64,000 nucleotides of DNA from Candidatus Macondimonas diazotrophica (lineage in GTDB: Bacteria > Pseudomonadota > Gammaproteobacteria > UBA5335). A program made the position numbers and the translations under genes. Shown piece after piece: positions 34,679 through 49,843 of the stretch. Within the stretch, counting starts at the first letter, position 1, and each line of letters starts with the position of its first letter. The stretch lies in the NCBI RefSeq assembly GCF_004684205.1, contig NZ_SRIO01000008.1, forward strand, positions 1 to 64,000, in the 5' to 3' direction. The notes under the pieces are model-generated. The model had not been told where the DNA came from, made no database searches, and worked only from the letters and a program-made list of their open reading frames with translations.

Positions 34679-36484
34679 CTAGAAGTGGTAGCTCAGCCGG
34701 CTCAGAAAGACACTGCTGTCGCCGGTGGTTCCGAGCACATGTGTCTTGTTCTCTGGTGGACCGAATATCTTCTTGGTGTTGTTCTGGAAGAACAGATCCG
34801 CCTCAAAGGCCAGACGCCAATGGTCGCCGAAGACGAACGTAACCGCCGGGATCAGAAAGGCATCCGCCCCGTTGAGATTCACCCCGCCCGCCAAGGAGGG
34901 AAGAATCGTGTCGTAGCGGTAGTTGAGCAGCAACGAAGCGGTCAGGAATACGGTATGCTCATCCCGCCCCTGCCCATAAGACAGCACCTCGACAATGTCA
35001 TCATCTTCGTCGTAGTCGACGATCCATTGGTCGATCAGCTGAATCGTCGCCAGCGAGCCTCGATCGGTCCCCAACCAGCGCATCAGGTCAAAGGTCTTGT
35101 CGGCGCCGATCATATAGGTAACGGTATCTTTTTCGATTACACCGGCCAGACCGGGCACATCGATGGTCCCCCAACCAAGCGGAATAGCGCCGGCAACCGG
35201 CAGTTGCGGCATGTAGGTGGGAATCGTGATCGGCACTTCGGTGCCATAGTTCCATGGGCGATTCGGCTGGTAGAGAAATTCCCCTCGCAGGACCGCATCC
35301 GCAAACATCCAATAGTAGTTAAAGGTCCCGCCGTAATTGGACTGCCGAGCGTAGATCAACTCCCCTCCCAGACCATCACCTTCAGGAACTTCCTTGTAGG
35401 GTTGGCAGGCCGGATTGATATCGACGGCGAACGGTACCGTGGTTCCCTGAACGGTGCTGCCAGCATCCAACGTTCTACGACAATTTGCGATCGGGTCCTG
35501 GATCAACCCGCGATAGAACAGCAGTGAATAACCCACGTCACCGAACGTGCCGCTCCACCGAAACCCATACTCATCGTCATCCACATCTCCCGCTGCGCCG
35601 TGGTAGTTATAGGGCGCGATGTTTTCCGTAATGTTCACACCCCAGTTGGGCTGACCTGCGTAACGGCCGCCCGCCAGGTCCAATTCGTTGCCGTAGTTTT
35701 CGGAACCATCGATCCCCCCCGGTTTGTAAATGAGTTGCAGATTGCCCGCGAGCTCCGGGACCTCGACGATCAGGTTAGCCAGAGTAGACGGCTTGCGCAG
35801 TTCCTCGTTCTCCAGTTCGAAGAATGATCGCCAGCGCTGATCGTAGCCATGCACGATATCGGTGATGCGGAAAAAATCTGTTTCCCCCCAGACGACCTGC
35901 TGGCGCCCTAGACGAAGAAATAGGCGGTTCACACCGGTGAAATCGGCATACGCCTCACGCAGAACCAATCCCTCGTCGTAGTAGTCATCGAGGAACTCCC
36001 CCCCCAGATCAGTCTGGATCAATCCGGGCGCGCAGTTGCGCGACGGCAAGGCCCCCTCGCCCTGACAGACCGGCCCCAATGCCGACAGCACAGGAACCGG
36101 CGCACTGGTCGGGGTAGCCTTCACGATGGTCTTTTTCGAAGCCCGCTCGAGTTTCTTCAGATACGGCGTCTTGGTCTCAGTGGCGTATCGCGTACTCACG
36201 AAGGCCCGCACGTTGTCGCCATCGAGCTGAAAGTTCAACAATCCCTGATAGCGATTCATGGACAGCTGGCCCTGCCCGCCGATCTCCTCGCCTTCCACAT
36301 TCTGCGGAACCTTCTTATCCTCGAGGTTGATCGCCGCATGATTTCGTACATACCCACTGACCTCGGCATCCATGCCGAACACTTCGAATGCGGCCACCTC
36401 CTGCGGGCTGTAGGAACCGAAAGCAAAAAGGGCGAGGCCGAGTGGCATGCCGAACATGCCGCGGGTCTGTGTCACTCTGGTCAT
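34679..36484 (-). CDS. DUF1302 family outer-membrane protein
   Basis: The 601-residue exported protein has a signal peptide followed by a long beta-rich sequence with DUF1302 blocks: LREAYADFTGVNRLFLRLG, RQQVVWGETDFFRITDI and a barrel-type C-terminal strand ending LSRLSYHF. Members probably form outer-membrane channels and often occur with DUF1329 proteins in bacteria that handle steroids, terpenes or hydrocarbons. The ATG at 36484 has AGGTGG at good spacing. It is the last gene of the oxygenase/transport cluster and is followed by a terminator. Confidence 0.88.
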   Translation of the reverse strand: MTRVTQTRGMFGMPLGLALFAFGSYSPQEVAAFEVFGMDAEVSGYVRNHAAINLEDKKVPQNVEGEEIGGQGQLSMNRYQGLLNFQLDGDNVRAFVSTRYATETKTPYLKKLERASKKTIVKATPTSAPVPVLSALGPVCQGEGALPSRNCAPGLIQTDLGGEFLDDYYDEGLVLREAYADFTGVNRLFLRLGRQQVVWGETDFFRITDIVHGYDQRWRSFFELENEELRKPSTLANLIVEVPELAGNLQLIYKPGGIDGSENYGNELDLAGGRYAGQPNWGVNITENIAPYNYHGAAGDVDDDEYGFRWSGTFGDVGYSLLFYRGLIQDPIANCRRTLDAGSTVQGTTVPFAVDINPACQPYKEVPEGDGLGGELIYARQSNYGGTFNYYWMFADAVLRGEFLYQPNRPWNYGTEVPITIPTYMPQLPVAGAIPLGWGTIDVPGLAGVIEKDTVTYMIGADKTFDLMRWLGTDRGSLATIQLIDQWIVDYDEDDDIVEVLSYGQGRDEHTVFLTASLLLNYRYDTILPSLAGGVNLNGADAFLIPAVTFVFGDHWRLAFEADLFFQNNTKKIFGPPENKTHVLGTTGDSSVFLSRLSYHF

Positions 36485-36561
36485 GATTACCACCTATCGT
36501 AACTTCAGATATTTTTGTAACCATAAATGGCGCAGTGTGAGCTTCGATATGATCCGTGCGC

Positions 36562-37122
36562 TCACGGCGGTGGCGGCGGTCCCTCGGGGAATCGAATGAC
36601 CGGCGTATCCACCGGGGCACCCGGCGGCACGTAGGCCGGCGTTGGGTCGCCTGCCGGTCCCAGCGCCTTCACGAACCGATACATGGCGCGCGCATCGGAT
36701 TCGGTGAGGGCGTTGAGCACGAACCATCCCATGGGGGGTCGAGTCACCACGTTCCGGGCATACATCACCCAACCGTCCTCGGTCAGCCCGGAAAAAAACA
36801 ACCGGAGATTGACGGGATAGGTTGTCCCCCAGCCGCCCTGCCAGCCAACGGCGCTACCCGTCAGCCAAGCTGATTCCGGCAGGTCGCCGCCAGCCTCGAC
36901 GTAGCCCGGTGTATGGCATTCGTTGCATCCCCCGACCACGACGAGGTAGCGCCCCCGATCGATTGCTTCGTCAGGCATCCCGCGACCCGGGTTACCTTCG
37001 GCTGCAATGCCCAGCGCTCCCCACATCGCCAACAGGCCGATCGCGGCGCCCACCGAAAGCCAGGGACGCCGCCGCAATGGCTGAGCGCTGCGCGCAAACG
37101 AGAATCCCGCCACCGAGCTCAA
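36562..37122 (-). CDS. Monohaem c-type cytochrome
   Basis: The 186-residue product has a membrane-spanning signal segment (about residues 20-40) and a haem site GGCNECHTPG (C-x2-CH). A probable distal Met lies in RPPMGW, and the C-terminus is Pro-rich. It would act as a periplasmic electron carrier. The TTG at 37122 overlaps the stop of the upstream RidA gene; a GTG at 37113 is the alternative. Its presence beside oxygenases suggests an electron-transfer or alcohol-dehydrogenase partner role, which is not shown. Confidence 0.8.
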   Translation of the reverse strand: MSSVAGFSFARSAQPLRRRPWLSVGAAIGLLAMWGALGIAAEGNPGRGMPDEAIDRGRYLVVVGGCNECHTPGYVEAGGDLPESAWLTGSAVGWQGGWGTTYPVNLRLFFSGLTEDGWVMYARNVVTRPPMGWFVLNALTESDARAMYRFVKALGPAGDPTPAYVPPGAPVDTPVIRFPEGPPPPP

Positions 37123-37532
37123 CCCCCGACGATCGCCAAGGCCTGTACCTCGAGCATCATTCCCGGCACGGCCAGCTTGGTGACGCCGATTGCGGTTGAC
37201 GTCGTTCGGCAGCCCGGCAGAATCTCTCGAAAGTATTGGAAGGCGGTCATGACCCTGCCGGAAAACTCCTCGGCGGTCGGCACGTCGACGAGATAGGCAA
37301 TGATCTGCACGATGTCGGCGTCGGTTCCGCCGGCCTCGGCCAGCACATTTTTCATGTTCTCAAAGGTGGCACGGCATTGCTCCTCGTAAGTCGGCAGCGG
37401 CTCGAACCGATCATTCATACCCGCCTGCCCCGATAGGAAAACCAGATTGTCGGCCTTGATGGCTTCGACGATCCCAAGCTGATCGTAGAGGGGGGCGCTG
37501 TGGGGCATCGTGATGCGAGTCATCTCACTCAT
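37119..37532 (-). CDS. RidA/YjgF family protein (copy 1)
   Basis: The 137-residue protein has the trimeric RidA fold blocks ADNLVFLSGQAGMN, EEQCRATFENMKNVLAEAGG and LVDVPTAEEFSGRVMTAFQYF, then RTTSTAIGVTKLAVPGMMLEVQALA. The Arg that binds keto acids in RidA has an equivalent in GCRTTST. AGGAG precedes the ATG at 37532. RidA proteins deaminate reactive imines; dedicated copies in catabolic operons often act on pathway intermediates. Confidence 0.88.
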   Translation of the reverse strand: MSEMTRITMPHSAPLYDQLGIVEAIKADNLVFLSGQAGMNDRFEPLPTYEEQCRATFENMKNVLAEAGGTDADIVQIIAYLVDVPTAEEFSGRVMTAFQYFREILPGCRTTSTAIGVTKLAVPGMMLEVQALAIVGG

Positions 37533-37567
37533 TGCGTCATTCTCCTGATGGATGGTCTGGTGTGTGA

Positions 37568-37924
37568 TCAGCCGGGAATCGGCGTTTTGCATTCCGTCAT
37601 CTGCGGACGCCACCATTCAAGCCCGAGGGGAACGTCCGGCTGCTCGTAGATTTCCACGGCAGCTGCGATATCCATGAAACTGCTGGCGAGAAAGAACAGC
37701 GGCAGCAACGATGCCGGAAGCTGTCCCGGAGCGAACTGATTGAGGTGTCCGGTCACCTCATCCATGCGGGGCAGCATGGCATCGTAGAAAGCCTTGAGCT
37801 CCTCTTGGGAACTGGCCATGCGCTGCTGGTAGCGGTCACGGAAGGTCGGCTTGGCCCACTTCTCCAAGTAGGCCTCCAGATCCCCGAAACCCTCAGGAAG
37901 ATCGGTTTTGGCGATGTCGGTCAT
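37568..37924 (-). CDS. Small Rieske-oxygenase-associated protein (copy 1), unknown
   Basis: The 118-residue acidic, probably helical protein has no motif I recognise. It is clearly paralogous to the 115-residue product at 42355-42702: both share LP-x-GF-x-x-LEA, the WAKP segment, RYQ, FAP and an EIYEQPDV/ELYKQPDV stretch near the C-terminus. Each copy directly follows a Rieske oxygenase alpha-subunit gene, here with one base between. It could be a divergent small subunit, assembly factor or chaperone of that oxygenase. GGAGC precedes the ATG at 37924. Confidence 0.75.
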   Translation of the reverse strand: MTDIAKTDLPEGFGDLEAYLEKWAKPTFRDRYQQRMASSQEELKAFYDAMLPRMDEVTGHLNQFAPGQLPASLLPLFFLASSFMDIAAAVEIYEQPDVPLGLEWWRPQMTECKTPIPG

Positions 37925-37925
37925 C

Positions 37926-39155
37926 TCAAGCTCCGTTGGCAAGAAGGTCACGAATGACGTAGTGGGAATGACGCACCACGACCTCCATGTCGCTCAACAC
38001 CATCGAATCGAACGCGCCCGAGCGGAGATTCGACTGGGCCCGTTCCACGGTACTCAGATCTTCCAACGCCACATCGAAGATCATGGCCTTGGTGTGCTCG
38101 AAGCCGATGTAGCCGGCGATACTGGTCGGTTCGAAGGCGTAGACTGTCGCCTCGACGATGGAGGTCTCGGCCGTGACCGGCCAATAACACTGCGTCACCG
38201 ACCACCCATTGGCGGTGTAGAACGAGCAATTGGGGAACAGCAGGTGAATATCGAACGCCCAATCATCACGGCGGTCGGGATTCACGCCTGGGGGGAAATC
38301 GCTCCATCGGGCGCCATGGGCTTGATCGTAGCGATCGCCCTGGATAGGCGCGTAGGTCGCCATCTGCTGGTATTTGAGCTCCAGAGCTGCGGCCGCAGTG
38401 GCTGTCTGACCGGGATTACCGAACATCGAAAGCGACTTGTGCTTGTCGTACAGACGGACCGAATTCAGGTGCCCCCACGGGTTTTCCTTGCTGGTAAAGG
38501 CATCACCCGCCGACTGGCCATGCAGCTGGACCACGTGATAACCCTCCAGAAAGGCATCCATGACCATCTTCCAGTTGGCATTCACTTCGGTGCGGATCTT
38601 CAGCATGGTGGCCATCTGTGGCAGCGGGTAGCCGTCGAACGCGCCGTGCAACTCGCCCAACCATGCCGCCAGGGGCTCCACCGGTTCCGGTGAGAAATTG
38701 ACGAACAGCATGCCCATCCAGCGGTCGACCGGAACGGTTTTCAAGCTGCGCTGATCGCGATCGAGGTTGAAGAATGCAGCCTCATCGGGAACATGTTTCA
38801 GCGCTCCATCCAAGCCGAACGACCAACCGTGGAACGAACACACGAAGCGGTTCTTGTGCCCGCATTCGGTGATTTCCACGCGGTTGGCCCGGTGTGGGCA
38901 GACGTTGTGGAAAGCCTTGATGGATCCATCCTGCTGACGGGCGATGATCAGCGACGCCTTGAGTGGTGGAAAGTATTTCACGACGTAATCGCCAGCCGTC
39001 GGGATGTCGCTTTCGCGAGCGGCAAACAACCAGTTACGGCGAAACACCTTGTCGACTTCCAGCTTGAAGAACTCCTCGTCGTAGTAGGGAAAATAGGGGA
39101 CCGGCTCGGTGTCCAGATTCCCGTAGTTGTGCGTGAAATCAGGGATTGCTGCCAT
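37926..39155 (-). CDS. Rieske aromatic-ring-hydroxylating oxygenase alpha subunit (copy 1)
   Basis: The 409-residue protein has the Rieske [2Fe-2S] ligands Cys86, His88, Cys106 and His109 (VCPHR and VCSFHGW). The mononuclear iron ligands are His207 and His212 in EGYHVVQLH, with an Asp probably supplied by ALEDLSTVE near residue 366. No beta subunit is encoded nearby, so it is likely an alpha-only oxygenase. It needs an electron donor, perhaps the ferredoxin domain fused to the permease at 45937. Its spacing of ligands is identical to that of copy 2. GGAGG precedes the ATG. Confidence 0.92.
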   Translation of the reverse strand: MAAIPDFTHNYGNLDTEPVPYFPYYDEEFFKLEVDKVFRRNWLFAARESDIPTAGDYVVKYFPPLKASLIIARQQDGSIKAFHNVCPHRANRVEITECGHKNRFVCSFHGWSFGLDGALKHVPDEAAFFNLDRDQRSLKTVPVDRWMGMLFVNFSPEPVEPLAAWLGELHGAFDGYPLPQMATMLKIRTEVNANWKMVMDAFLEGYHVVQLHGQSAGDAFTSKENPWGHLNSVRLYDKHKSLSMFGNPGQTATAAAALELKYQQMATYAPIQGDRYDQAHGARWSDFPPGVNPDRRDDWAFDIHLLFPNCSFYTANGWSVTQCYWPVTAETSIVEATVYAFEPTSIAGYIGFEHTKAMIFDVALEDLSTVERAQSNLRSGAFDSMVLSDMEVVVRHSHYVIRDLLANGA

Positions 39156-39203: not shown

Positions 39204-39629
39204 TCAACCGCCCAACGCGCGGCCGATGCACTGGATTTCCAGCAAGAGCCTGGGAATACCGAACATCTGCGCGCCGACTAACGCGCCGGTGGCCGGTGAG
39301 CCGGGGAAGTTCGACTTCCAGCTACCGAAAATCACATCGGATGCCTCGGTGAGTGGAGCCTCCAACAGCCCGGTGTTCACATACACCGTCAACTGGCAGA
39401 CTGCGGACGAATCGCCACCGACAGCCGCATAGGCCGCCTTCAATTGGCTAAACGCACGATCGGCCTGCATTGCCAGCCCGTCCAGGGCGACCAACTGGAC
39501 ATCGATACCGGCTTGGGCGGACACGAATACCCAACGACCGCGCCGACGCGCGTCGACACAGCCCAATGGCTCGAACAGTGGACGCGTATGATCGAACCAG
39601 AAGACCTGGTCCTGGGCTGCGGCCGTCAT
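39204..39629 (-). CDS. RidA/YjgF family protein (copy 2)
   Basis: The 141-residue protein shows RidA-type blocks (GRWVFVSAQAGID, MQADRAFSQLKAAYAAVGGD, VYVNTGLLEAPL and a final PRLLLEIQCIGRA). It is divergent from copy 1 and lacks an obvious catalytic Arg in the usual place. Its ATG overlaps the stop of the StyA-like gene by four bases, so the two are translationally coupled. Confidence 0.8.
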   Translation of the reverse strand: MTAAAQDQVFWFDHTRPLFEPLGCVDARRRGRWVFVSAQAGIDVQLVALDGLAMQADRAFSQLKAAYAAVGGDSSAVCQLTVYVNTGLLEAPLTEASDVIFGSWKSNFPGSPATGALVGAQMFGIPRLLLEIQCIGRALGG

Positions 39630-40918
39630 ACTGCCGCCCCCATGGCGGGTGCCGGTGTGGCGTGATCGGCGATGAACCGCTTCGCCGCCTGCTCATCTTC
39701 GATATACGGCCACGCGCTCGGGGGATACCCGAACCAGCCGACGAACGCCTGGGCAATTGCCGGATCGCGGGTAGCGGCCATCTGAATGCTCATCAGCGCC
39801 TTGTTTGGCGCGTCCTGGAGCAACGTACAGAACCGGAACGCGAATTGACCGTACTGGTCCCAATGCTCATCCCAGACCGACTGCATCCAGTCCGGATCGT
39901 AGGCGGCATCGCCTCGCTCCAGAATGTGACGGACATAGCGATCGGTCATGCGGACCGCATTGTTGCCGCTCTGACCGGCATAGGGATCCTGGATCATGGC
40001 TGCATCGCCCATCCCCCAGACCCATGCGCCATTGTCCAGTTGCTTCACCGGACAGCGCACCATGGGCTCGGTTGGACCATACAACCACGCACCTTCATCG
40101 GGAATGACGGCATCCTCATACAGGAACGCATTGTCCGGAATGAGCTTTTCCGTGGCCTCGCGGGCAAACTCCAAATAGGCGGCCGCGGTCTTCCGATCTC
40201 GACCCGCATCGAACGGCCCGCCGGGAACCGTGCTCTGGAAAGCGAAGCCCCGACAGACACCGGCTGCGGTATAGAACGGCCAGGAAAACACATCGCCGAC
40301 GCCCGGAAGAATGTCGAAACGCAGCGGCGAGAAGGGCACGTCATCCCAAGGCTGGTGGCTCGCAACCCTGGGTCCCACCAGAAATATTGCCGCTGAGGGC
40401 AAAGGGGGAAGGTGGTGCGTACTGCGTTCCTCGTCCTTGTCGAAGATCTGGCTGAGCGGTCCCCGGCCGGTCACCACCAGCGTCAGATCGCTTGCCGCAG
40501 CGATCTCTTCTAGATCCGTCACGGCGATATCTCGAACGACGAGCTTTCCACCACGTCGCTCCCACTCATCCATCCAGGTGGAAAACTTCAGACGATAGTC
40601 GACACCCAGGGCGTAGAGCCCGTCGGGGAATCTTCCGGTCAGGCGGAACAAGTCCTTGCCGGATCCACCGGGATCCTTGATGTGCATATCGAAGCCTTCG
40701 GCCCGTGCATCGACATCCTCCCAGAAATTGATACCCAGGCTCGATTCGCGCTCGAGCACCCAGCGAAAGGGCGCCGCCATGCTGAGCATGCGTCCATTGC
40801 GCAGCTGCTCGGCTGTGCGATTGGTGTAGACGGTGACCTCATAATCCCCGGCCTGCTGAAGCGAAAAGGCTGCATGGAAACCCGCCAATCCGCCGCCGAT
40901 GATGGCGATCTTGCGCAT
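39626..40918 (-). CDS. StyA-like FAD-dependent monooxygenase (copy 1)
   Basis: The 430-residue flavoprotein starts MRKIAIIGGGLAGFHAAF with the G-x-G-x-x-G FAD loop at residues 8-13. The middle region matches the styrene monooxygenase substrate-binding layout (SLGINFWEDVDARAEGFDMH), and GMGDAAMIQDPYAGQSGNNA is the second FAD motif. StyA enzymes epoxidise or hydroxylate using FADH2 delivered by a separate flavin reductase, and such a reductase is encoded at 45422. The ATG at 40918 has GGGAGA upstream; the frame runs on for 110 codons without a credible start. Confidence 0.88.
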   Translation of the reverse strand: MRKIAIIGGGLAGFHAAFSLQQAGDYEVTVYTNRTAEQLRNGRMLSMAAPFRWVLERESSLGINFWEDVDARAEGFDMHIKDPGGSGKDLFRLTGRFPDGLYALGVDYRLKFSTWMDEWERRGGKLVVRDIAVTDLEEIAAASDLTLVVTGRGPLSQIFDKDEERSTHHLPPLPSAAIFLVGPRVASHQPWDDVPFSPLRFDILPGVGDVFSWPFYTAAGVCRGFAFQSTVPGGPFDAGRDRKTAAAYLEFAREATEKLIPDNAFLYEDAVIPDEGAWLYGPTEPMVRCPVKQLDNGAWVWGMGDAAMIQDPYAGQSGNNAVRMTDRYVRHILERGDAAYDPDWMQSVWDEHWDQYGQFAFRFCTLLQDAPNKALMSIQMAATRDPAIAQAFVGWFGYPPSAWPYIEDEQAAKRFIADHATPAPAMGAAV

Positions 40919-40952: not shown

Positions 40953-42257
40953 CTACTGCAGTAGCCGGCTAAGGGCACCTGGCGTGTAGTCAGCTGGTGA
41001 AGCCGGATAATCAGCGGTGTAATGGCCGCGAGATGAAGGCGCGACCGTGGCGTGGTTGCGCTGAAGGTCGATGACACGCACCGGACTGGGTGCATAGACC
41101 AGGCGATTGGTGGTGTTGGTGCGGTAGGTATAGAGACCCTGATCCATGGTTCGCCACAACTGCCCGCGGCGGTCATACGCCTCGAACACGTAGGGCAGCG
41201 ACATGTAGGCGTTCTCCGCCTCGAAGTAGTAGGTTTTCTTGCTCGCAAGGTGGTCGTCGGGCATGGTCATCTCGACGACCCACACCTGACGCGGCTCGTA
41301 GGTGTCGTCAAAGTCCCAATACGGCGCAGTAGAGAGTTTCACGCCATAGTGCTTGTCCGGATCCTTGGCGGACTCGTCCATTCCCGGATTGGTGCTGTGG
41401 GCAACTGCCAAGATCCAGCGCTTGCCAATGACCTTGATATCCTTGTACCAGCGTGGGTCGGCATTCAGGCCGGTCTGCTCGTCACCCAGAAGATCCGTGC
41501 CGCCCAGGGGATCTTTCCAGGCTCCACCGGACAACCGGCGAACCCGGCGCACCGCCTTGATGTAGCCGTAGCTGTCCGGCAACGCGCCGTCATCCTTCAT
41601 CATCGAGAGGATGCCCACGCCCTTGGCATCGGTCGGATAGGTAATGATCATCATCGATGCCTGACGCAGATCGTCGCTGAGCTCATGCGGCTCGGAGAGC
41701 CGGCCCTTCAGAAGCATCTTGGAAACCGTTGCATGAAGTTCTTTCTGCAGCCCACTCTTGGCGTCGATGCTGAGCAGCACCATGGGATCGAACTTGCCGA
41801 CATCGCCCATCCAGGGCGTATACATGAAGTTGTAAACCAGCTTCACGCCAGCCAAGGGATCTTCTTCACGAATGTCCGGGAACGGCACGCCCGTCACGAA
41901 GCCTTCGACGTCCAAGGTCTGTGGATCGATGGTCACCGAACCGGAATGTTTCTCGGTCGCCGCCTTGAGCGCTGGATCGATCTCGATCGGCTTGGCGTGC
42001 GCCAGCTTCATGGTGATCCCGTAGTCACGGATCAGCTGCTGCTGGACCGGCGTCAGAAGGTCTTTCAAAGGCTTGCCCTCGAAGGTGTCGGTGAGCAACG
42101 AATCAAGATTGGCTGCCGACAGCACCGTCCCTTCGGCGATCTCGGCCTCTGCCACCGGCGATACGCCCAACATGATCAGCGCCGCCAGCCCAGCCGGGGC
42201 GAGACACCTTTTGTTAACAAACGTAACTAGTTTTAATAAAGTAACACTAATGGACAT
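40953..42257 (-). CDS. DUF1329 family exported protein
   Basis: The 434-residue protein has a signal peptide ending near PVAEAEIAEG and a body with DUF1329 features: RRVRRLSGGAWKDPLGGTDLL, ILAVAHSTNPGM and the RQVWVVEMTM region. The fold is predicted to be LolA/LolB-like, which would suit periplasmic binding of lipid-like molecules; this is from family knowledge, not seen directly. The ATG at 42257 follows AGGGGAT. It partners the DUF1302 protein of the same cluster. Confidence 0.87.
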   Translation of the reverse strand: MSISVTLLKLVTFVNKRCLAPAGLAALIMLGVSPVAEAEIAEGTVLSAANLDSLLTDTFEGKPLKDLLTPVQQQLIRDYGITMKLAHAKPIEIDPALKAATEKHSGSVTIDPQTLDVEGFVTGVPFPDIREEDPLAGVKLVYNFMYTPWMGDVGKFDPMVLLSIDAKSGLQKELHATVSKMLLKGRLSEPHELSDDLRQASMMIITYPTDAKGVGILSMMKDDGALPDSYGYIKAVRRVRRLSGGAWKDPLGGTDLLGDEQTGLNADPRWYKDIKVIGKRWILAVAHSTNPGMDESAKDPDKHYGVKLSTAPYWDFDDTYEPRQVWVVEMTMPDDHLASKKTYYFEAENAYMSLPYVFEAYDRRGQLWRTMDQGLYTYRTNTTNRLVYAPSPVRVIDLQRNHATVAPSSRGHYTADYPASPADYTPGALSRLLQ

Positions 42258-42354
42258 GACGATCCCCTGTGTGAGAGATGCGATAGCGTCTGCACCGGGA
42301 TGGGTCTGCCGTCGCAAACCTGATCCGGTCGATACCTACTGCGATACGGCCGGG

Positions 42355-42702
42355 TTAGCCGCCGATGCCGATCCGGTCGATAAGCGCCACCCGATGGGCC
42401 TCAAAGCCCAGCCAGACATCGGGCTGCTTGTAGAGCTCGACGGCCGGTGACACGTTCATGGCCGCATAGGTCAGGTAAAGCAGTCGTCGGCTGGCATCCG
42501 GGAGATCATCGGTTGGCGCAAAACCGTCAAAGTGCGCCGCACAGCGATCCATTGCCGATATCATCGCTTGATAGAAGGTCTGTATCTCATCCATGGTACT
42601 GGTGATGCGCACCTGGTAGCGTGCCGCGAATGAGGGCTTGGCCCATCGCTCGGCAAACGCCTCCAGTTCCTCGAACCCTGCAGGCAACAGTTTCTTGTTC
42701 AC
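42355..42702 (-). CDS. Small Rieske-oxygenase-associated protein (copy 2), unknown
   Basis: The 115-residue protein is a paralogue of the product at 37568-37924 and shares LPAGFEELEAF, WAKPSF and VELYKQPDVWLGF with it. A GTG at 42702 is the start, with GGAGG six bases upstream; the frame is open for 62 further codons inside the oxygenase gene, which I regard as chance. It lies 14 bases after the second Rieske alpha gene. Function unknown. Confidence 0.75.
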   Translation of the reverse strand: MNKKLLPAGFEELEAFAERWAKPSFAARYQVRITSTMDEIQTFYQAMISAMDRCAAHFDGFAPTDDLPDASRRLLYLTYAAMNVSPAVELYKQPDVWLGFEAHRVALIDRIGIGG

Positions 42703-42716
42703 GAGTGGCCTCCGCC

Positions 42717-43916
42717 TTACCGATTGATGATCTGATCGACGATGTGGTGTCCATGCCGGACCAGCACTTCCTGATCGCTGAGATACATCTCGTTGACCGC
42801 GCCGGACTTGAGCATCCCTTGTGTACGCTCCACCGTGCTGAGATCTTCCAAGGCCACGTCGAACAGCTGCGTCTTGGCATGTTCCCAACCGATCAACCCC
42901 TTGGTGTCCGTCGGCTCAAACATGTACATGTGCGACTCGTAGATGCTCTTGTCCGGCGCGATCGGCCAGTACATCTGGCGAAGGAACCAGCCATTCGAGG
43001 TGTAGAAGGAGAAATTGGGGAAGACCAGCGTGGAATCGAAGGCCCAGTCGCTCCGGCCGTCGGGATTGACGCCAGGTACTTTTTCCAGGGCCTGCGCGGA
43101 ATGCGCCGGCGTATAGGACGGGCCAAACACGAACTTCAGCGCCAGCGCCTGAGCCGGCGTCGGAATCTGCTCGGGATTCCCATAGATCGACATGCTGCGA
43201 TGCGGTCCGAGCAGACGAACCGAATTCAGATGTCCGTTGGGGTTGGCGTCACTGTTGAACGCATTGGGTGCCGAACGTGCATGCAGCTCCAACACATGAT
43301 AGGCCTCCATGTAGGCATCCATGAGCAGCTTCCAGTTCGCATTCACTTCGGCGCGCAGGGTCAGAACGCATTTCATCCCCTCGTGCGGAAACCCGTCGAA
43401 CATGTGCTCCAGCGACCCAAGATGCTCGCGCAGGGATTGCGCCGGCTTCGGATCCACATTGATGAACACGAATCCTTGCCATGTATCCAGCGCAACTTCT
43501 CGCAGACACATTTTCGCCTTGTCCAGGCCATGAAATGAACCTTCGTCCGGCACGTGTCGCAACTGGCCATCATTGTCATAGGCCCATCCATGAAAACCAC
43601 AGACGAACCGACTGACGTTGCCCTGCGGATGAACGGCAACCTTGTTGCCGCGATGCAGACACATATTGTGGAAGGCGCGCAGCTGGTTCTGTCGATTGCG
43701 CGTGATAATGATCGACGTATCGCAGATCGGCAGGTCCTGCACGAAGTAATCGCCGGGATTCGGCGCCTGATCCTCGCGCCCGACGCATAGCCAGCTCTTC
43801 TTGAAGATCATCTCTTTCTCGCGCTGAAAGACCGATTCACTGTGATAGTTCTCCAGCGGAACCAGTCCTGTTCCCAGCGCTGCTGTGGCGGGATCAAACG
43901 GTGTTGCTACGGCCAT
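42717..43916 (-). CDS. Rieske aromatic-ring-hydroxylating oxygenase alpha subunit (copy 2)
   Basis: The 399-residue protein has Rieske ligands Cys86, His88, Cys106 and His109 (MCLHRG and VCGFHGW). Mononuclear-iron ligands His207 and His212 lie in EAYHVLELH, and ALEDLSTVERTQ is the probable Asp segment. Ligand positions are identical to copy 1, which points to duplication. The ATG at 43916 has AGGAG seven bases upstream; upstream in-frame codons lie inside the StyA-like gene. No beta-subunit gene is present. Confidence 0.92.
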   Translation of the reverse strand: MAVATPFDPATAALGTGLVPLENYHSESVFQREKEMIFKKSWLCVGREDQAPNPGDYFVQDLPICDTSIIITRNRQNQLRAFHNMCLHRGNKVAVHPQGNVSRFVCGFHGWAYDNDGQLRHVPDEGSFHGLDKAKMCLREVALDTWQGFVFINVDPKPAQSLREHLGSLEHMFDGFPHEGMKCVLTLRAEVNANWKLLMDAYMEAYHVLELHARSAPNAFNSDANPNGHLNSVRLLGPHRSMSIYGNPEQIPTPAQALALKFVFGPSYTPAHSAQALEKVPGVNPDGRSDWAFDSTLVFPNFSFYTSNGWFLRQMYWPIAPDKSIYESHMYMFEPTDTKGLIGWEHAKTQLFDVALEDLSTVERTQGMLKSGAVNEMYLSDQEVLVRHGHHIVDQIINR

Positions 43917-43938: not shown

Positions 43939-45234
43939 CTAGACGGCTTGACGAATTTCGGCTGCAGCGGAACTGGTCTGTCGCGCGCTTTCGACAAAAC
44001 GCTTGGCATCCTCCACTGATCGCAGCCACGGAACCATGGTCTTGGGATCGGTAAAGGCTGTGGCGAAGGCATCTGCAACGCGCTGGTCAACACCTGCGGC
44101 CTGCAGAATCACCATCAGCGGCGGCCCTGGGTCTTTCAGCAAGCGGTTGGTGAACTCGATGGGGTATTGACCGTAGTCGTTCCAGTAGTCCTCGAACGTC
44201 TGCTCCATCCAGCCAGCACCAGCAGTCTGCGCCCCGAGATCAACGAGCTCTTCGGCAACCCGATGGACCATCCGAATGCCATTGTTCGCTCCCTGACCTG
44301 CCAATGGATCGGTCAACATCACCACATCGCCCAATCCCATGACGGGATGGCCGGAACGCGTATACCCAACGGGCTTGCGGATGGTCGGCGTCAACGCCCC
44401 TGCGACCCAACCGCCTGGCTCGCACAGAGTCGCCTGGGAAAACTCGGGCACGTCACCCGGCAGAAACTTGCGCATCAGATCAAGACCGACCTGCAGCAGC
44501 TCATCCCCGGACTGCGCACCCGTGAACTGATCAAACGGGGAACCCGGAATCGCCTCGAATGCCATACCGCGACAAGGCACGCCAGGCTTACCGAACATCG
44601 GAATCGAGAACACATCGCCGACTCCGAAGATGGTGTGCAGGCGCAGATGGGGGAAACCCACATCGGGCCAGGCGTGCTGGCCGGTAATGCTCTCCCCCTC
44701 CAACATCAGCACCCCCATATGACGCGCTGGCCGGTCGAACTCGCTGCGCACATCATCGCGTTCGAACAGCTTGCTCATAACACCCTTGCCGACCGCCACG
44801 AAGGTGACGTCGTATTCCTGGGCGATGGCGTCCAGCCGGACCTCATCGATATTCTCGATCCGCAGATCCCCACCCCGTGCGACAAACTCTTGCATCCACC
44901 GTGGAATACGGATTCGGTAGTCCACACCCTGGGCAGTCACCCCATCGCGAAATGCGGCTGTGATCGACGCGACAGTCTCGCCAGTCGGCAAATGCGCCTC
45001 CAGGTGGATTCCCATGCCGCGAGGCGTCACGTCATCCCAGAAATTCAGCCCGAGTTCTTGCTCCTTTTGCTGGACGTAGGAAAAGAATGCCGCCGTATTG
45101 GATAGCTTTCCTTCACCGTAAGCCTCGGGCGTCCGGTCAGAGAACAGAGTGATCTTGCCGACTCCAGCCCTGAGCAGAGCGAATCCCAAATGCAGACCGA
45201 CCGGGCCGGCGCCGATGATGGCGATTGACTTCAT
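43939..45234 (-). CDS. StyA-like FAD-dependent monooxygenase (copy 2)
   Basis: The 431-residue flavoprotein has IIGAGPVGLHLGFALL for FAD, LGLNFWDDVTPRGMGIHLEA in the StyA-type substrate domain and GLGDVVMLTDPLAGQGANNG as the second FAD motif. It is a paralogue of the product at 39626-40918. GGAGG lies nine bases before the ATG. It opens the second StyA-Rieske-small-protein module and has an AT-rich upstream gap of 187 bases, so a promoter is likely there. Confidence 0.88.
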   Translation of the reverse strand: MKSIAIIGAGPVGLHLGFALLRAGVGKITLFSDRTPEAYGEGKLSNTAAFFSYVQQKEQELGLNFWDDVTPRGMGIHLEAHLPTGETVASITAAFRDGVTAQGVDYRIRIPRWMQEFVARGGDLRIENIDEVRLDAIAQEYDVTFVAVGKGVMSKLFERDDVRSEFDRPARHMGVLMLEGESITGQHAWPDVGFPHLRLHTIFGVGDVFSIPMFGKPGVPCRGMAFEAIPGSPFDQFTGAQSGDELLQVGLDLMRKFLPGDVPEFSQATLCEPGGWVAGALTPTIRKPVGYTRSGHPVMGLGDVVMLTDPLAGQGANNGIRMVHRVAEELVDLGAQTAGAGWMEQTFEDYWNDYGQYPIEFTNRLLKDPGPPLMVILQAAGVDQRVADAFATAFTDPKTMVPWLRSVEDAKRFVESARQTSSAAAEIRQAV

Positions 45235-45421: not shown

Positions 45422-45940
45422 TCATGCACACTGGTGCCCCAGATAGGTGTCCGAGTAGATCGCACCTCGATAGAACAGCAATGGCGAACGCTGCTGCTGC
45501 CATGAGTAGCCGACAACCTTGCCGATCACGATCGCATGGTCGCCACACGGGACAGCCTCCATCCGCTCGCATTCAAAAGCGGCCACCGCACCGTGAATAA
45601 GCGGGACCCCGGTTTCGCCCGCCTCCACCGGAATGCCGCGGAATTTGTCTTCGCGAGGCGTCGCGAACTGGTGGCATACCGCTTCCTGATCGTGAGCGAG
45701 AATGCTGACGCCGAAGTACCGAGCATCAACGAAATTCGCATGGTTGGGCGATTGGTTGCGAATACACCAGGACAGTGCCGGGGGGCTCATCGAGACCGAC
45801 GAGATGGAATTCACGGTGATTCCGATCATTCGGCCTTCCGGTGTACAGGCGCTCACAATGGCAATGCCCGTCGCGAAACAGCCGAATGCATTTCGCATGT
45901 CCCGTGGATCAATCTCCAATGTCAGCGGGGTCTGGCTCAT
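45422..45940 (-). CDS. Flavin reductase (StyB/HpaC-like)
   Basis: The 172-residue flavin-reductase-domain protein has RNAFGCFATGIAIVSA, GITVNSISSVSMSPPALSWCI, HANFVDARYFGVSILAHDQE and the C-terminal HAIVIGKVVGY block with the conserved His. It supplies reduced flavin from NAD(P)H to two-component monooxygenases such as the StyA-like proteins downstream. Its ATG overlaps the stop of the permease-ferredoxin gene by four bases, so the three redox parts are coupled. Confidence 0.9.
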   Translation of the reverse strand: MSQTPLTLEIDPRDMRNAFGCFATGIAIVSACTPEGRMIGITVNSISSVSMSPPALSWCIRNQSPNHANFVDARYFGVSILAHDQEAVCHQFATPREDKFRGIPVEAGETGVPLIHGAVAAFECERMEAVPCGDHAIVIGKVVGYSWQQQRSPLLFYRGAIYSDTYLGHQCA

Positions 45941-48759
45941 GATGCAGCTCGCATGGGGGCCGACGCAGGCGCGCCAGCAGGTTGAGGGGAAAGGGAGATG
46001 AAGAGCGCATCACCCTGCTGAATCACGTCATAGCGCCGGAGTGGAAGTTTGACCGGCGGCGCGACAGGCAGCCCTGTCCGGACATCGAACCGGCCGCCAT
46101 GCCAAGGGCACTCCACGTGTCCGGTTGCGGGATCGTAGTCTCCTTCCGAAAGCGACGCTGTACCGTGGGTGCACAGGTCGTCGACGACGTGGAAGCCCTC
46201 TTCTGTGCGGAACACGGCGACGCGATGCCCGTCGCTCAGATCGATGGGTTTACCCGCGGCGATCGGCACTGCTTCCACGGCACACAAGGGCTGAAGGGCG
46301 GGCCGTCCCAAACGGGACGACAAGCGAGACCGAACCGCCTCCCACAACGGACGCAATGTCCCCGCTCCCGGGGTGCGCCGGCGCGAGCAGTCGGCACATG
46401 CGTTTCGGGCCAGCGGTTCCGCTGCGCCGGCAAAGATGAAGTCAGGCTGAAATACCAATGCCAGCGCGGGGATGACCGTGAGGGCAGCCGTTGCGGCAAC
46501 CGCCATCCACAGTGCAATGAGCACACCCATCTCCGCCTGGAAACGCAATGCCGACAACTGCCACAACGACACGCTGACGATAATGGTGCTGCCCGTAATC
46601 ACCACACCCTTGCCGGCGGTCTGCAGTGCCTCACGAACGGCCGCAGCAATATCCGCGTTCCGCCGATGGGCTTCCCGGATGCGATCGACGATATAGAACC
46701 CGAAATCCACACCCATCCCGATTCCGAGCGTAATGACGGGCAATGTGTTGATCGTCAGTCCGATATTTTGCGAGGCCATGTAGGCGAAGGTCACCGCATT
46801 GGACAACACGACGCCCGGCAGAAAGAACAAACCGGCCTGCCAGGACAAGCCATAGCTGAGCCAGCAGCATGCGAACAGCAACGCCATTGCAAACGCGATC
46901 GTCTCAACCAGATGCGCTGCAATCGTCTCGTTCACCGCCGCCAGAACAGCCGGGAATCCACCCCCGAAGCGAACGGTGGCGGGCAGGTCCGGCGGCAGCT
47001 GTGCGATGGCTTCGTCGACACGCGCCTGCACGGCTCGCAAGGTCGGCCCGCGGTGGTCCCTGAGCTGCAGGTGGATGGCCCCGTCTGCATAGTCCTGGGT
47101 GCGGTACTGAACGAGATCGCCTGGATCCGCCGATTGTTCGAGCATGGCGATCAGCTGACCTGTCGCCTCCCGATCCTCCGGCAGTTCACGATATCGGGGA
47201 TTGCCTTCCCGCAGCGTCATGTTCAGCGGCGCAATCAGATCGGGCAAGGCCAGCGTACCCACGATCTCCGGCTGACGTGCAAGCTCGGACTGGATCCAGC
47301 CGACAGCCTGCAGCACCTTTGGGTCCTTCATCGCATCGGGCGCCTGCCCATCGACCACCAGAAACATCCGCTCCGCTCCGGGAAAGCGCTCATCAATCGC
47401 GGCGACTGCCTCATTGAATGTGGAGTCCGGCCACAACAGCGGCGTCCCCGGAAAGGCATCCCCGATCTGAAGTTCGGTGCTGCGCCAGATCGCCGCGCTG
47501 ACGAGGATTAGCGCCACTGTCAATACCGAGGAGGCACCGAACCGTCCCGTCAGTCGTTGTCCGAGCCAACCCAGAACGAAGTCCAGAGGCCGATGCCAAC
47601 TGCGGTAGTGGTAACTGGGCACCTGAACATCGGCCAGCACCAGCGGAATCAACGCAATGACGGTGATCGCAAGACTGGACAGCCAGATCACCCCAATCAG
47701 GGCGGCACCCTGCAGAATCGGAATGGGTGTGGTCAGCATGATGGCGACGGAACCCACATCTGTCGCCAGGCCTAGCGCGCTCGGGCGAAACAGCTTGACC
47801 AGGGTCTGACGCGCCGCGGTCATGGAATCCAGCTGCTCACGCTCCTCTGCATAGAGCCGACAGAACTGGACCGAATGAGAAACCGACCGGGCCGCCATCA
47901 GAAACGCCAGCACCATCATGAGCGGATCGAGCCGCAATCCCGCCAGTGAAACCGCACCCAGCGCGAAGGTTGCCGACAATCCGGCCGCCAACAGCGGCAA
48001 CACGGTGCCCAGCCACGAGCCCATCGCCCCCCAGAGCAAAGCCACCAACAGCAGGAGGATTGCACCTGCCAGCAGCATGGTCTGCGGGATATAGGTCAGG
48101 GCCAGCGCCTGCAACACCGGCTCACCTACCACATAGGTTTCAATCGCCGGATTGTCGATCGCCCCGATCGCTTCATTCACTGCTTCGTGAATCTCGGCAT
48201 AACTGGTATCACCACGGGCGATGGCGTCGTCAATGAAGCCCACCACGATCAACGCCGCCGTAAGATCCCGCGAAACGAAATTCCCGAGCACGATGTCGTT
48301 GGCCAGCACCCGGTCGCGCAGCTGCGCAACCTCGGTCACACTGGCCGGCGTGCCTGGCCACATCAGCGGCTCGATATCGACTGCGTCACTCGAGGCCGAA
48401 ATATGCCGCAGCTTGCGCGACGCCAGGGACACCACCTGGTAGGGATCAACGGCCGGTACACTCTCGAGACGCCGAGTCAGCGCCGCCAACTCCCGCAACA
48501 CATCGGCGTCGAACAGATCCCCCTCACGCACTCGGAACATGACAACCAGTGAATTGGTCGATCCGAATGTCTGGGCGAATTGCTGATGAACGGAAATCGT
48601 CGAATGATCGAGTGGATAGAGCTGCTCCGGGCCACTGCTAACTTGCAGGCGATTCCACGCAACCACCCCCATCACCATCGCCAGCGTCACGATGCCGAGG
48701 CGAAACACCCGACGCCAGCCAAACAATCCATCCAACACCAGTCGGGCAAGACTGCTCAT
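45937..48759 (-). CDS. RND/MMPL permease fused to a C-terminal Rieske [2Fe-2S] ferredoxin
   Basis: The 940-residue protein reads without a break. Residues 1 to about 780 are an RND/MMPL-type exporter with paired helix bundles and periplasmic loops (LRLDPLMMVLAFLMAARSVSHSVQF and LPVITLGIGMGVDFGFYIVDRI are characteristic). A basic linker of about 40 residues follows. From about residue 825 there is a complete ferredoxin with Cys863, His865, Cys884 and His887 (CTHG and CPWHGG). The ferredoxin would be tethered to the inner membrane, presumably on the cytoplasmic side since it follows the last helix. I know of no common fusion of this kind. GAGGGA precedes the ATG. Confidence 0.88.
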   Translation of the reverse strand: MSSLARLVLDGLFGWRRVFRLGIVTLAMVMGVVAWNRLQVSSGPEQLYPLDHSTISVHQQFAQTFGSTNSLVVMFRVREGDLFDADVLRELAALTRRLESVPAVDPYQVVSLASRKLRHISASSDAVDIEPLMWPGTPASVTEVAQLRDRVLANDIVLGNFVSRDLTAALIVVGFIDDAIARGDTSYAEIHEAVNEAIGAIDNPAIETYVVGEPVLQALALTYIPQTMLLAGAILLLLVALLWGAMGSWLGTVLPLLAAGLSATFALGAVSLAGLRLDPLMMVLAFLMAARSVSHSVQFCRLYAEEREQLDSMTAARQTLVKLFRPSALGLATDVGSVAIMLTTPIPILQGAALIGVIWLSSLAITVIALIPLVLADVQVPSYHYRSWHRPLDFVLGWLGQRLTGRFGASSVLTVALILVSAAIWRSTELQIGDAFPGTPLLWPDSTFNEAVAAIDERFPGAERMFLVVDGQAPDAMKDPKVLQAVGWIQSELARQPEIVGTLALPDLIAPLNMTLREGNPRYRELPEDREATGQLIAMLEQSADPGDLVQYRTQDYADGAIHLQLRDHRGPTLRAVQARVDEAIAQLPPDLPATVRFGGGFPAVLAAVNETIAAHLVETIAFAMALLFACCWLSYGLSWQAGLFFLPGVVLSNAVTFAYMASQNIGLTINTLPVITLGIGMGVDFGFYIVDRIREAHRRNADIAAAVREALQTAGKGVVITGSTIIVSVSLWQLSALRFQAEMGVLIALWMAVAATAALTVIPALALVFQPDFIFAGAAEPLARNACADCSRRRTPGAGTLRPLWEAVRSRLSSRLGRPALQPLCAVEAVPIAAGKPIDLSDGHRVAVFRTEEGFHVVDDLCTHGTASLSEGDYDPATGHVECPWHGGRFDVRTGLPVAPPVKLPLRRYDVIQQGDALFISLSPQPAGAPASAPMRAAS

Positions 48760-48772
48760 ATCGCGTCCCTCG

Positions 48773-49843
48773 TTATCGAATCACTGGGGACCGTGCAGCC
48801 ATCTGCTGCCGATCGAATCGAAGCTGCCTTTCACCAGCCGGGGTGTCGGACGACGCTCTTGCCCGCATCGGAAGCGACAACTTCAACGGATGACTCGCAG
48901 TCAATGCCACCAGGTCGCGGCCGCGGAGATCCACATCCAGAACGACATCGGCAGGCGCCAACCGCCCATCCAGCGTTCGCAGGAACGGGTGCGTCCGGTG
49001 ATCCAGCGTGAACAGCTGCCCCAAGGCGCCACCGAGAATTGCCTCCCCTGACTCATCCATGGCCGCGGCGTACAGGGCGGGTGTTGCCGAGTCCACCGGA
49101 ATCCGGGTCCAGTGCTCGCCGCTGTCCTCGGTAGTCAACACGACACCATTCAGCCCGGCGATCACGCCATACGGACCGCGAAAATCCACCGCCATCAATG
49201 ACTCGCTTACCGGCGCAGTGACGGATCGCCACGTGTATCCATCGGGTGAATAGGAGAGTCGGCCGAACTCTCCCACCAACCAGATCCCGTTCTCGGAGAA
49301 GCCGACGTCGTTCCATGCCATGTCTTCCCGCGCAACGACTTGCGTAAAGGATCGGCCTTCGTCACGGCTGACCAATGCAGCGCCCATGACGCCGACGGCC
49401 CACAGTGCCCCGTCCGGGGCTTGGCGAATGCGGACCAGTTTGTTCTCGATATCGGACGAGGGAACGCCGGGCACTGCCTGCCAGGTTTGCCCGGAGTCTT
49501 CTGAACGCAGGATATCGCCGCCGTTGCCGACCGCGACCACGGTGCCATTGCCAAGTGCGACAGCATCCTGAAGATGCTGATGCGTTCCCGTCCATCCGGA
49601 CCGCCAATGCTCACCACCATCATCGCTTATTCGCACTTGCCCATAGGATCCGACAAGCCAGATCTGATCGCTGTTCTCCGGCGAAACGGCAAGACCGTAA
49701 TAACGGTATCGCCCCGCGAATGGCTCATCCACTGGGGGCGTGATGCTGGGCTTGAAGTCCGCGTAGATTCCGGTCAGCAGCAACGCCGACAGAACCGTCA
49801 AACCCACAACGACCCTTGATACGCGGCGTCTCATCATGCTCAT
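48773..49843 (-). CDS. YCF48/photosystem-II-assembly-like beta-propeller protein
   Basis: The 356-residue exported or anchored protein has an N-terminal hydrophobic segment (about residues 10-27). It is followed by repeated BNR/sortilin-like blades with the S-x-D-x-G-x-x-W pattern (SDDGGEHWRS, SEDSGQTWQA, SPDGYTWRS, TEDSGEHWTR). Such proteins recur beside RND, DUF1302 and DUF1329 genes. It begins the minus-strand cluster, 13 bases ahead of the permease gene. Function in this setting is unknown. Confidence 0.85.
   Translation of the reverse strand: MSMMRRRVSRVVVGLTVLSALLLTGIYADFKPSITPPVDEPFAGRYRYYGLAVSPENSDQIWLVGSYGQVRISDDGGEHWRSGWTGTHQHLQDAVALGNGTVVAVGNGGDILRSEDSGQTWQAVPGVPSSDIENKLVRIRQAPDGALWAVGVMGAALVSRDEGRSFTQVVAREDMAWNDVGFSENGIWLVGEFGRLSYSPDGYTWRSVTAPVSESLMAVDFRGPYGVIAGLNGVVLTTEDSGEHWTRIPVDSATPALYAAAMDESGEAILGGALGQLFTLDHRTHPFLRTLDGRLAPADVVLDVDLRGRDLVALTASHPLKLSLPMRARASSDTPAGERQLRFDRQQMAARSPVIR

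Follow-up and report, generated by a model that had tools for sequence, protein, structure and literature searches.

How a single gene could come to encode both an exporter of the inner membrane and an electron carrier, and what such a protein might be for, is the question raised by one locus in the 64,000 nucleotides of Candidatus Macondimonas diazotrophica analysed here (contig NZ_SRIO01000008.1, hereafter the window). The original prediction was that one open frame of 940 codons joins an RND permease to a Rieske ferredoxin. The gene belongs to a run of genes on the same strand, listed here in their order along it, with the two parts of the fusion given separately:

48773..49843, minus strand: Ycf48-like periplasmic protein (AmeC-like), 13 nt upstream of the fusion
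45937..48759, minus strand: AmeD-type RND permease-Rieske ferredoxin fusion, 940 aa, by open reading frame and domain searches (RND 1-776, linker of 46 residues 777-822, Rieske 823-925, tail 926-940)
46432..48759, minus strand: RND/HAE3 part of the fusion, 12 TM helices and two periplasmic domains
45985..46293, minus strand: Rieske [2Fe-2S] ferredoxin part of the fusion, residues 823-925, ligands C863/H865/C884/H887
45422..45940, minus strand: flavin reductase (StyB/HpaC class), its start overlapping the fusion stop by 4 nt
43939..45234, minus strand: StyA-like FAD monooxygenase 1 (StyA1), best PDB match in the 7z97 flavoprotein group
42717..43916, minus strand: Rieske oxygenase alpha subunit 1 (open frame to 44093, conserved part from near 43916)
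42355..42702, minus strand: small conserved protein sm1, no family match
40953..42317, minus strand: DUF1329 protein (AmeB-like)
39626..40918, minus strand: StyA-like FAD monooxygenase 2 (StyA2)
39204..39629, minus strand: RidA-like protein 1
37926..39155, minus strand: Rieske oxygenase alpha subunit 2, 48% identical to alpha subunit 1
37616..37915, minus strand: small protein sm2, paralogue of sm1
37119..37616, minus strand: RidA-like protein 2
36562..37122, minus strand: conserved 186-aa protein, no family match
34679..36493, minus strand: DUF1302 outer-membrane protein (AmeA-like)

The fusion is read without interruption from 48759 to 45937 on the minus strand (the prediction had named no strand), with GAGGGA before the ATG start; the plus-strand reading of the same interval is broken by stops. 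Pfam recognised MMPL in two stretches (E 9.4e-29), ACR_tran and, at residues 823-902, Rieske (E 2.4e-12), so that the single frame and its two parts are borne out by the open reading frame and the domain matches alike. Among the NCBIfam models, the best match of the permease part was the HAE3 model TIGR00921, which scored 120 bits against a curated cut-off of 352. Comparison of the C-terminal part with ferredoxin profiles, a check proposed together with the prediction, gave dioxygenase ferredoxins of the HcaC/AndAb type, likewise under the cut-off, in addition to the Pfam match. In the PDB the carbazole dioxygenase ferredoxins (CarAc) came first for this part (3gce, E 1.6e-15; 1vck), then the biphenyl and naphthalene dioxygenase ferredoxins, and the best solved relatives of the permease part were MmpL3, MmpL4 and MmpL5. 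The C-terminal part contains both the Rieske domain and its CxH and CxxH ligands; the four residues that had been named are all there, and the second fusion described below has the same four. The Rieske protein thus forms the C-terminal end of a membrane protein of 940 aa and is not a free small soluble protein. No single Pfam model, NCBIfam model or PDB chain spans the two parts and no RND-Rieske fusion was found in the literature searched, in keeping with the suspicion that the architecture has no established family. Known families are combined here in a new way, and the combination is real, rare and conserved in two genera; it looks like an uncommon fusion within a familiar type of solvent-export operon.

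The second fusion comes from another genus of the same family (genome G005; MAG contig JAASSS010000020.1, isolate KhS_metabat.21, locus L002/L044). It is an uninterrupted homologue of 944 aa, 74% identical end to end to that of the window, and the length differences are whole codons only. The order of the operon is also the same for 14 of the 14 genes checked, namely Ycf48, fusion, flavin reductase, StyA1, Rieske oxygenase 1, small protein and DUF1329, followed by StyA2, RidA1, Rieske oxygenase 2, small protein, RidA2, the 186-aa protein and DUF1302 (truncated in G005 where the contig stops), and the enzymes are 63-90% identical. The overlap predicted between the flavin reductase gene and the fusion stop (ATGA) is retained in both genomes. 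Two Rieske oxygenases had been placed just downstream; they do lie downstream, at distances of ~2 kb and ~7 kb that hardly deserve the adverb. Between the two fusions, Nei-Gojobori estimates were dN 0.174 and dS 1.30 for the RND part and dN 0.173 and dS 1.54 for the Rieske part. Such low dN at high dS indicates that the two domains have been constrained within one frame, and both halves are under purifying selection. Both ends are constrained, and the linker (46 codons, 37% identity, pN/pS 0.69) has stayed open over a near-saturated synonymous divergence.

The count of genomes carrying the same fusion, also proposed at the outset, gave two in roughly 1,200 genomes searched, in overlapping sets that covered the order, class, phylum, a second class, and the orders and families of unfused relatives. 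Both are draft genomes of two related genera, and within the window's own family the fusion appears in 2/6 genomes. A pattern scan of the contigs of about 85,000 species returned one match, the already known G005, using two peptide patterns that reach close relatives only. Since no more than two candidates were scored in each genome of the large searches, and the scan is confined to close relatives, the number of fusions is a lower bound. The plasmid search gave no match covering 80% of the fusion query. Four other loci, two with long open frames (L056, L096) and two with Rieske matches in long frames (L087, L088), turned out on inspection not to be RND-Rieske fusions.

A way to approach the role of the permease is to look at its partners. 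Genes for DUF1302 (AmeA), DUF1329 (AmeB) and Ycf48-like (AmeC) proteins are encoded on the same strand in one gene run, ameA and ameB being separated from ameCD by oxygenase genes. The permease itself has 12 TM segments with periplasmic loops after TM1 and TM7 and is of the HAE3/MMPL type. In a tree of 31 permeases, which lacks the Castellaniella AmeD itself and has a long branch to the fused pair, the pair falls within a 22-member ame-type clade (100/100) that includes the permease of Aromatoleum EbN1, whose plasmid 2 has an ordinary Ycf48-MMPL-DUF1302-DUF1329 cassette adjoining beta-oxidation-type genes. Together with the permeases of f151, a separate family of the class, the pair belongs to a 12-member subclade (92/93). 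By these sequence criteria, the permease of the fusion is assigned to the AmeD lineage of HAE3 RND transporters; its description as an RND/MMPL permease was correct as to the RND type, and it can be given the more precise class of an AmeD-type HAE3 permease with AmeA, AmeB and AmeC in the operon. Residues D334, D685 and Y689, the putative proton relay, are invariant across 28 relatives, as would be expected for a proton-driven pump. The Ame system is known from Castellaniella defragrans, where AmeA is a DUF1302 protein of the outer membrane, AmeB a DUF1329 protein, AmeC a periplasmic protein of COG4447 (Ycf48-type) and AmeD the HAE3 permease (PMC6394551). Deletion of ame there lowered monoterpene tolerance and raised Nile Red accumulation, which was interpreted as export, and export of hydrophobic compounds by Ame is known from this one organism only (PMC6394551). 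By analogy, the pump of the window would also work in the direction of export.

As to where the ferredoxin would be found in the cell, hydropathy gave the 12 TM segments plus one peak (residue 165) inside the first periplasmic loop. In the RND superfamily both large loops are periplasmic, which with 12 TM segments would put the C-terminus of the fusion in the cytoplasm, on the side of the oxygenases; we infer that the Rieske domain sits on the cytoplasmic side of the pump. The AlphaFold model (mean pLDDT 86.5, pTM 0.77) has a confident permease and a folded Rieske domain (about 80-90), with residues 780-800 disordered and a low-confidence helix at 803-816, so the linker is predicted to be flexible. 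The underlying alignment had 27 sequences, two of which were read through a TGA solely for depth in the ferredoxin part. Foldseek matched the RND fold to MmpL4/5/3 and HpnN. An electron carrier tethered to the membrane, as had been proposed, is supported, but the linker is too poorly conserved to imply a fixed docking.

Profile searches of the operon genes revealed no free ferredoxin gene elsewhere in the operon. The fused ferredoxin most likely donates electrons, held at the membrane, to the operon's Rieske oxygenases. There is no ferredoxin reductase gene in the operon and no PF14759 reductase was found in the genome; a BenC-like reductase is encoded on another contig of the same genome. The genome also has other Rieske ferredoxin-like genes which could serve these oxygenases. 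Three such frames lie within 4 kb on one contig of the genome (G000:C14, 60.5-64.4 kb; L069, L071, L074). The same contig carries, at about 28-36 kb (L053), a second ame-type cassette with DUF1329, DUF1302, RND and Ycf48, the RND of which (36% identical) has no Rieske domain, and two RidA-like genes and a flavin reductase are found nearby.

In StyA/StyB systems the flavin reductase supplies the StyA monooxygenase, and by analogy the operon's flavin reductase would be expected to serve its two StyA-like proteins, to which the group of 7z97, which we take to be an indole monooxygenase, is the closest. The small proteins sm1 and sm2 are each encoded directly 3' of a Rieske oxygenase alpha gene, an arrangement conserved in G005; neither has a family match, and they are possibly an accessory subunit. 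The two RidA-like proteins (37119-37616 and 39204-39629), encoded within the oxygenase operon, could perhaps remove reactive imines.

Our preferred reading, which we regard as probable though well short of certain, is that the fusion is the inner-membrane pump of an AmeABCD-type system that carries the Rieske ferredoxin of the operon's oxygenases on its cytoplasmic C-terminus by way of a flexible linker. The operon would oxidise a hydrophobic, probably aromatic, compound by means of the two flavin monooxygenases and two Rieske oxygenases, and AmeA, B, C and D would export the toxic substrate or its products. The fusion would then hold the electron carrier, and perhaps docked oxygenases too, at the membrane where lipophilic substrates or products concentrate.

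In family f151 an unfused ameD is followed within ~70 bp by a Rieske ferredoxin gene in 7/7 genomes; this free ferredoxin has about 104 aa or slightly more, and in several genomes Rieske oxygenase beta and alpha genes come next, in others a DsbA/NahD-type isomerase. In G157 the ameD and ferredoxin genes even share a reading frame, interrupted by a single TGA. In the ferredoxin tree the fused and adjacent ferredoxins cluster (86/89), along with two free ferredoxins from other genomes. The sequences thus make it most likely that the fusion arose from neighbouring genes, a ferredoxin just downstream of ameD losing its separation. The deep branches leave it unproven that the fused pair descends from the f151 arrangement, given that the immediate sister of the fused pair in the permease tree is weak (81/77) and that no ferredoxin adjoins those nearest permeases. 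At L061, L064 and L084, too, Rieske ferredoxin genes adjoin one for a DsbA-like NahD-type isomerase, whether or not ameD is present.

Such neighbouring genes would also fit a neutral or expression-driven fusion, in which the two parts work independently, joining fixes their co-expression and stoichiometry, and the ferredoxin serves the oxygenases with no special benefit from its membrane location. The poorly conserved linker, disordered in the model, and the tight operon with its 4-nt overlap with the next gene agree with this explanation, which we consider rather unlikely, but the joined form has been kept across two genera at saturated synonymous divergence; the objection is a weak one, as a neutral fusion could be equally stable. 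Quite improbable is that a free ferredoxin is also made, through an internal start or proteolysis of the linker, part of the pool being soluble. Several TTG codons occur in the linker of the window (one at residue 802, for example, with GGAG before it) and G005 has an ATG just ahead of the Rieske part, but this ATG has no clear ribosome-binding site, the window linker has no ATG at all, and the candidate starts are at non-matching positions in the two genomes. It is very improbable that the Rieske domain is a redox sensor gating the pump instead of an oxygenase electron carrier: its covalent link to the pump's cytoplasmic end and the missing reductase would suit a sensor, but the domain is nearest to dioxygenase ferredoxins and the operon has two Rieske oxygenases with no separate ferredoxin. 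Finally, the worry that a frameshift or assembly error had joined two genes, or that homologues always encode the parts separately, can be all but dismissed: the separate genes with a stop between in another family would suit it, but the second genome, independent and from a different genus, has the same unbroken frame, with purifying selection on both sides.

Returning to the preferred reading, the pump with the oxygenases' ferredoxin on its cytoplasmic end, one may ask whether oxidation is physically coupled to transport, as the original prediction suggested. We put this forward as a hypothesis. In its fullest form, which we think unlikely, the protein would be an oxidation-and-export machine, the ferredoxin drawing the Rieske oxygenases to the pump's opening on the cytoplasmic side, where the product would be handed to export or incoming substrate oxidised on arrival, tying electron supply to transport. 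The experiments with AmeABCD indicate export, so the known relative does not lead one to expect substrate to be oxidised as it enters; if the pump is an exporter, coupling would more naturally take the form of oxidation followed or accompanied by export rather than uptake.

As to the setting, KhS stands for the sediment of Khark Island, rich in polyaromatic hydrocarbons, and the MAG KhS_21, placed in UBA5335, has alkB/alkM and xylM (PMC8166890); from the names, it appears to be the same MAG as KhS_metabat.21. The window's uncultivated bacterium is probably a pollutant degrader. In such bacteria the RND pumps of DUF1302/DUF1329/Ycf48/MMPL cassettes are repeatedly found next to catabolic genes, and little is known of their substrates or even their direction. 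The attachment of an oxygenase's own electron carrier ties such a pump to a specific oxidation step and offers a handle on the oxygenase partner, and, as another family has a ferredoxin gene beside ameD, Ame pumps and Rieske oxygenases may be functionally associated more widely.

Among known systems, the closest is the AmeABCD of Castellaniella, with the same combination of an HAE3 permease and DUF1302, DUF1329 and Ycf48-like partners in a catabolic island for hydrophobic compounds. However, its AmeD has 787 aa, no reported Rieske domain and monoterpenes as substrate (PMC6394551), and in the window the ame genes are interleaved with oxygenase genes. The hopanoid transporter HpnN shares the HAE3-family fold but has neither outer-membrane or periplasmic partner proteins nor a fused domain. 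On the other side of the fusion, CarAc, the biphenyl and naphthalene dioxygenase ferredoxins, HcaC and AndAb have the same domain, the CxH...CxxH motif and Rieske oxygenase neighbours, but known oxygenase Rieske ferredoxins are soluble, free-standing proteins of about 105-120 aa, whereas here the ferredoxin forms the C-terminal end of a transporter with 12 TM helices. An RND/MMPL transporter that holds a cytoplasmic carrier protein or biosynthetic enzyme does have precedents, as MmpL5 engages the cytosolic carrier AcpM (PMC12346298) and MmpL7 engages PpsE (PMC1238737). In these cases, unlike that of the fusion, the association is non-covalent, the partner is an acyl carrier or a synthase and not an electron carrier, and the process served is the export of mycobacterial lipids or siderophores.
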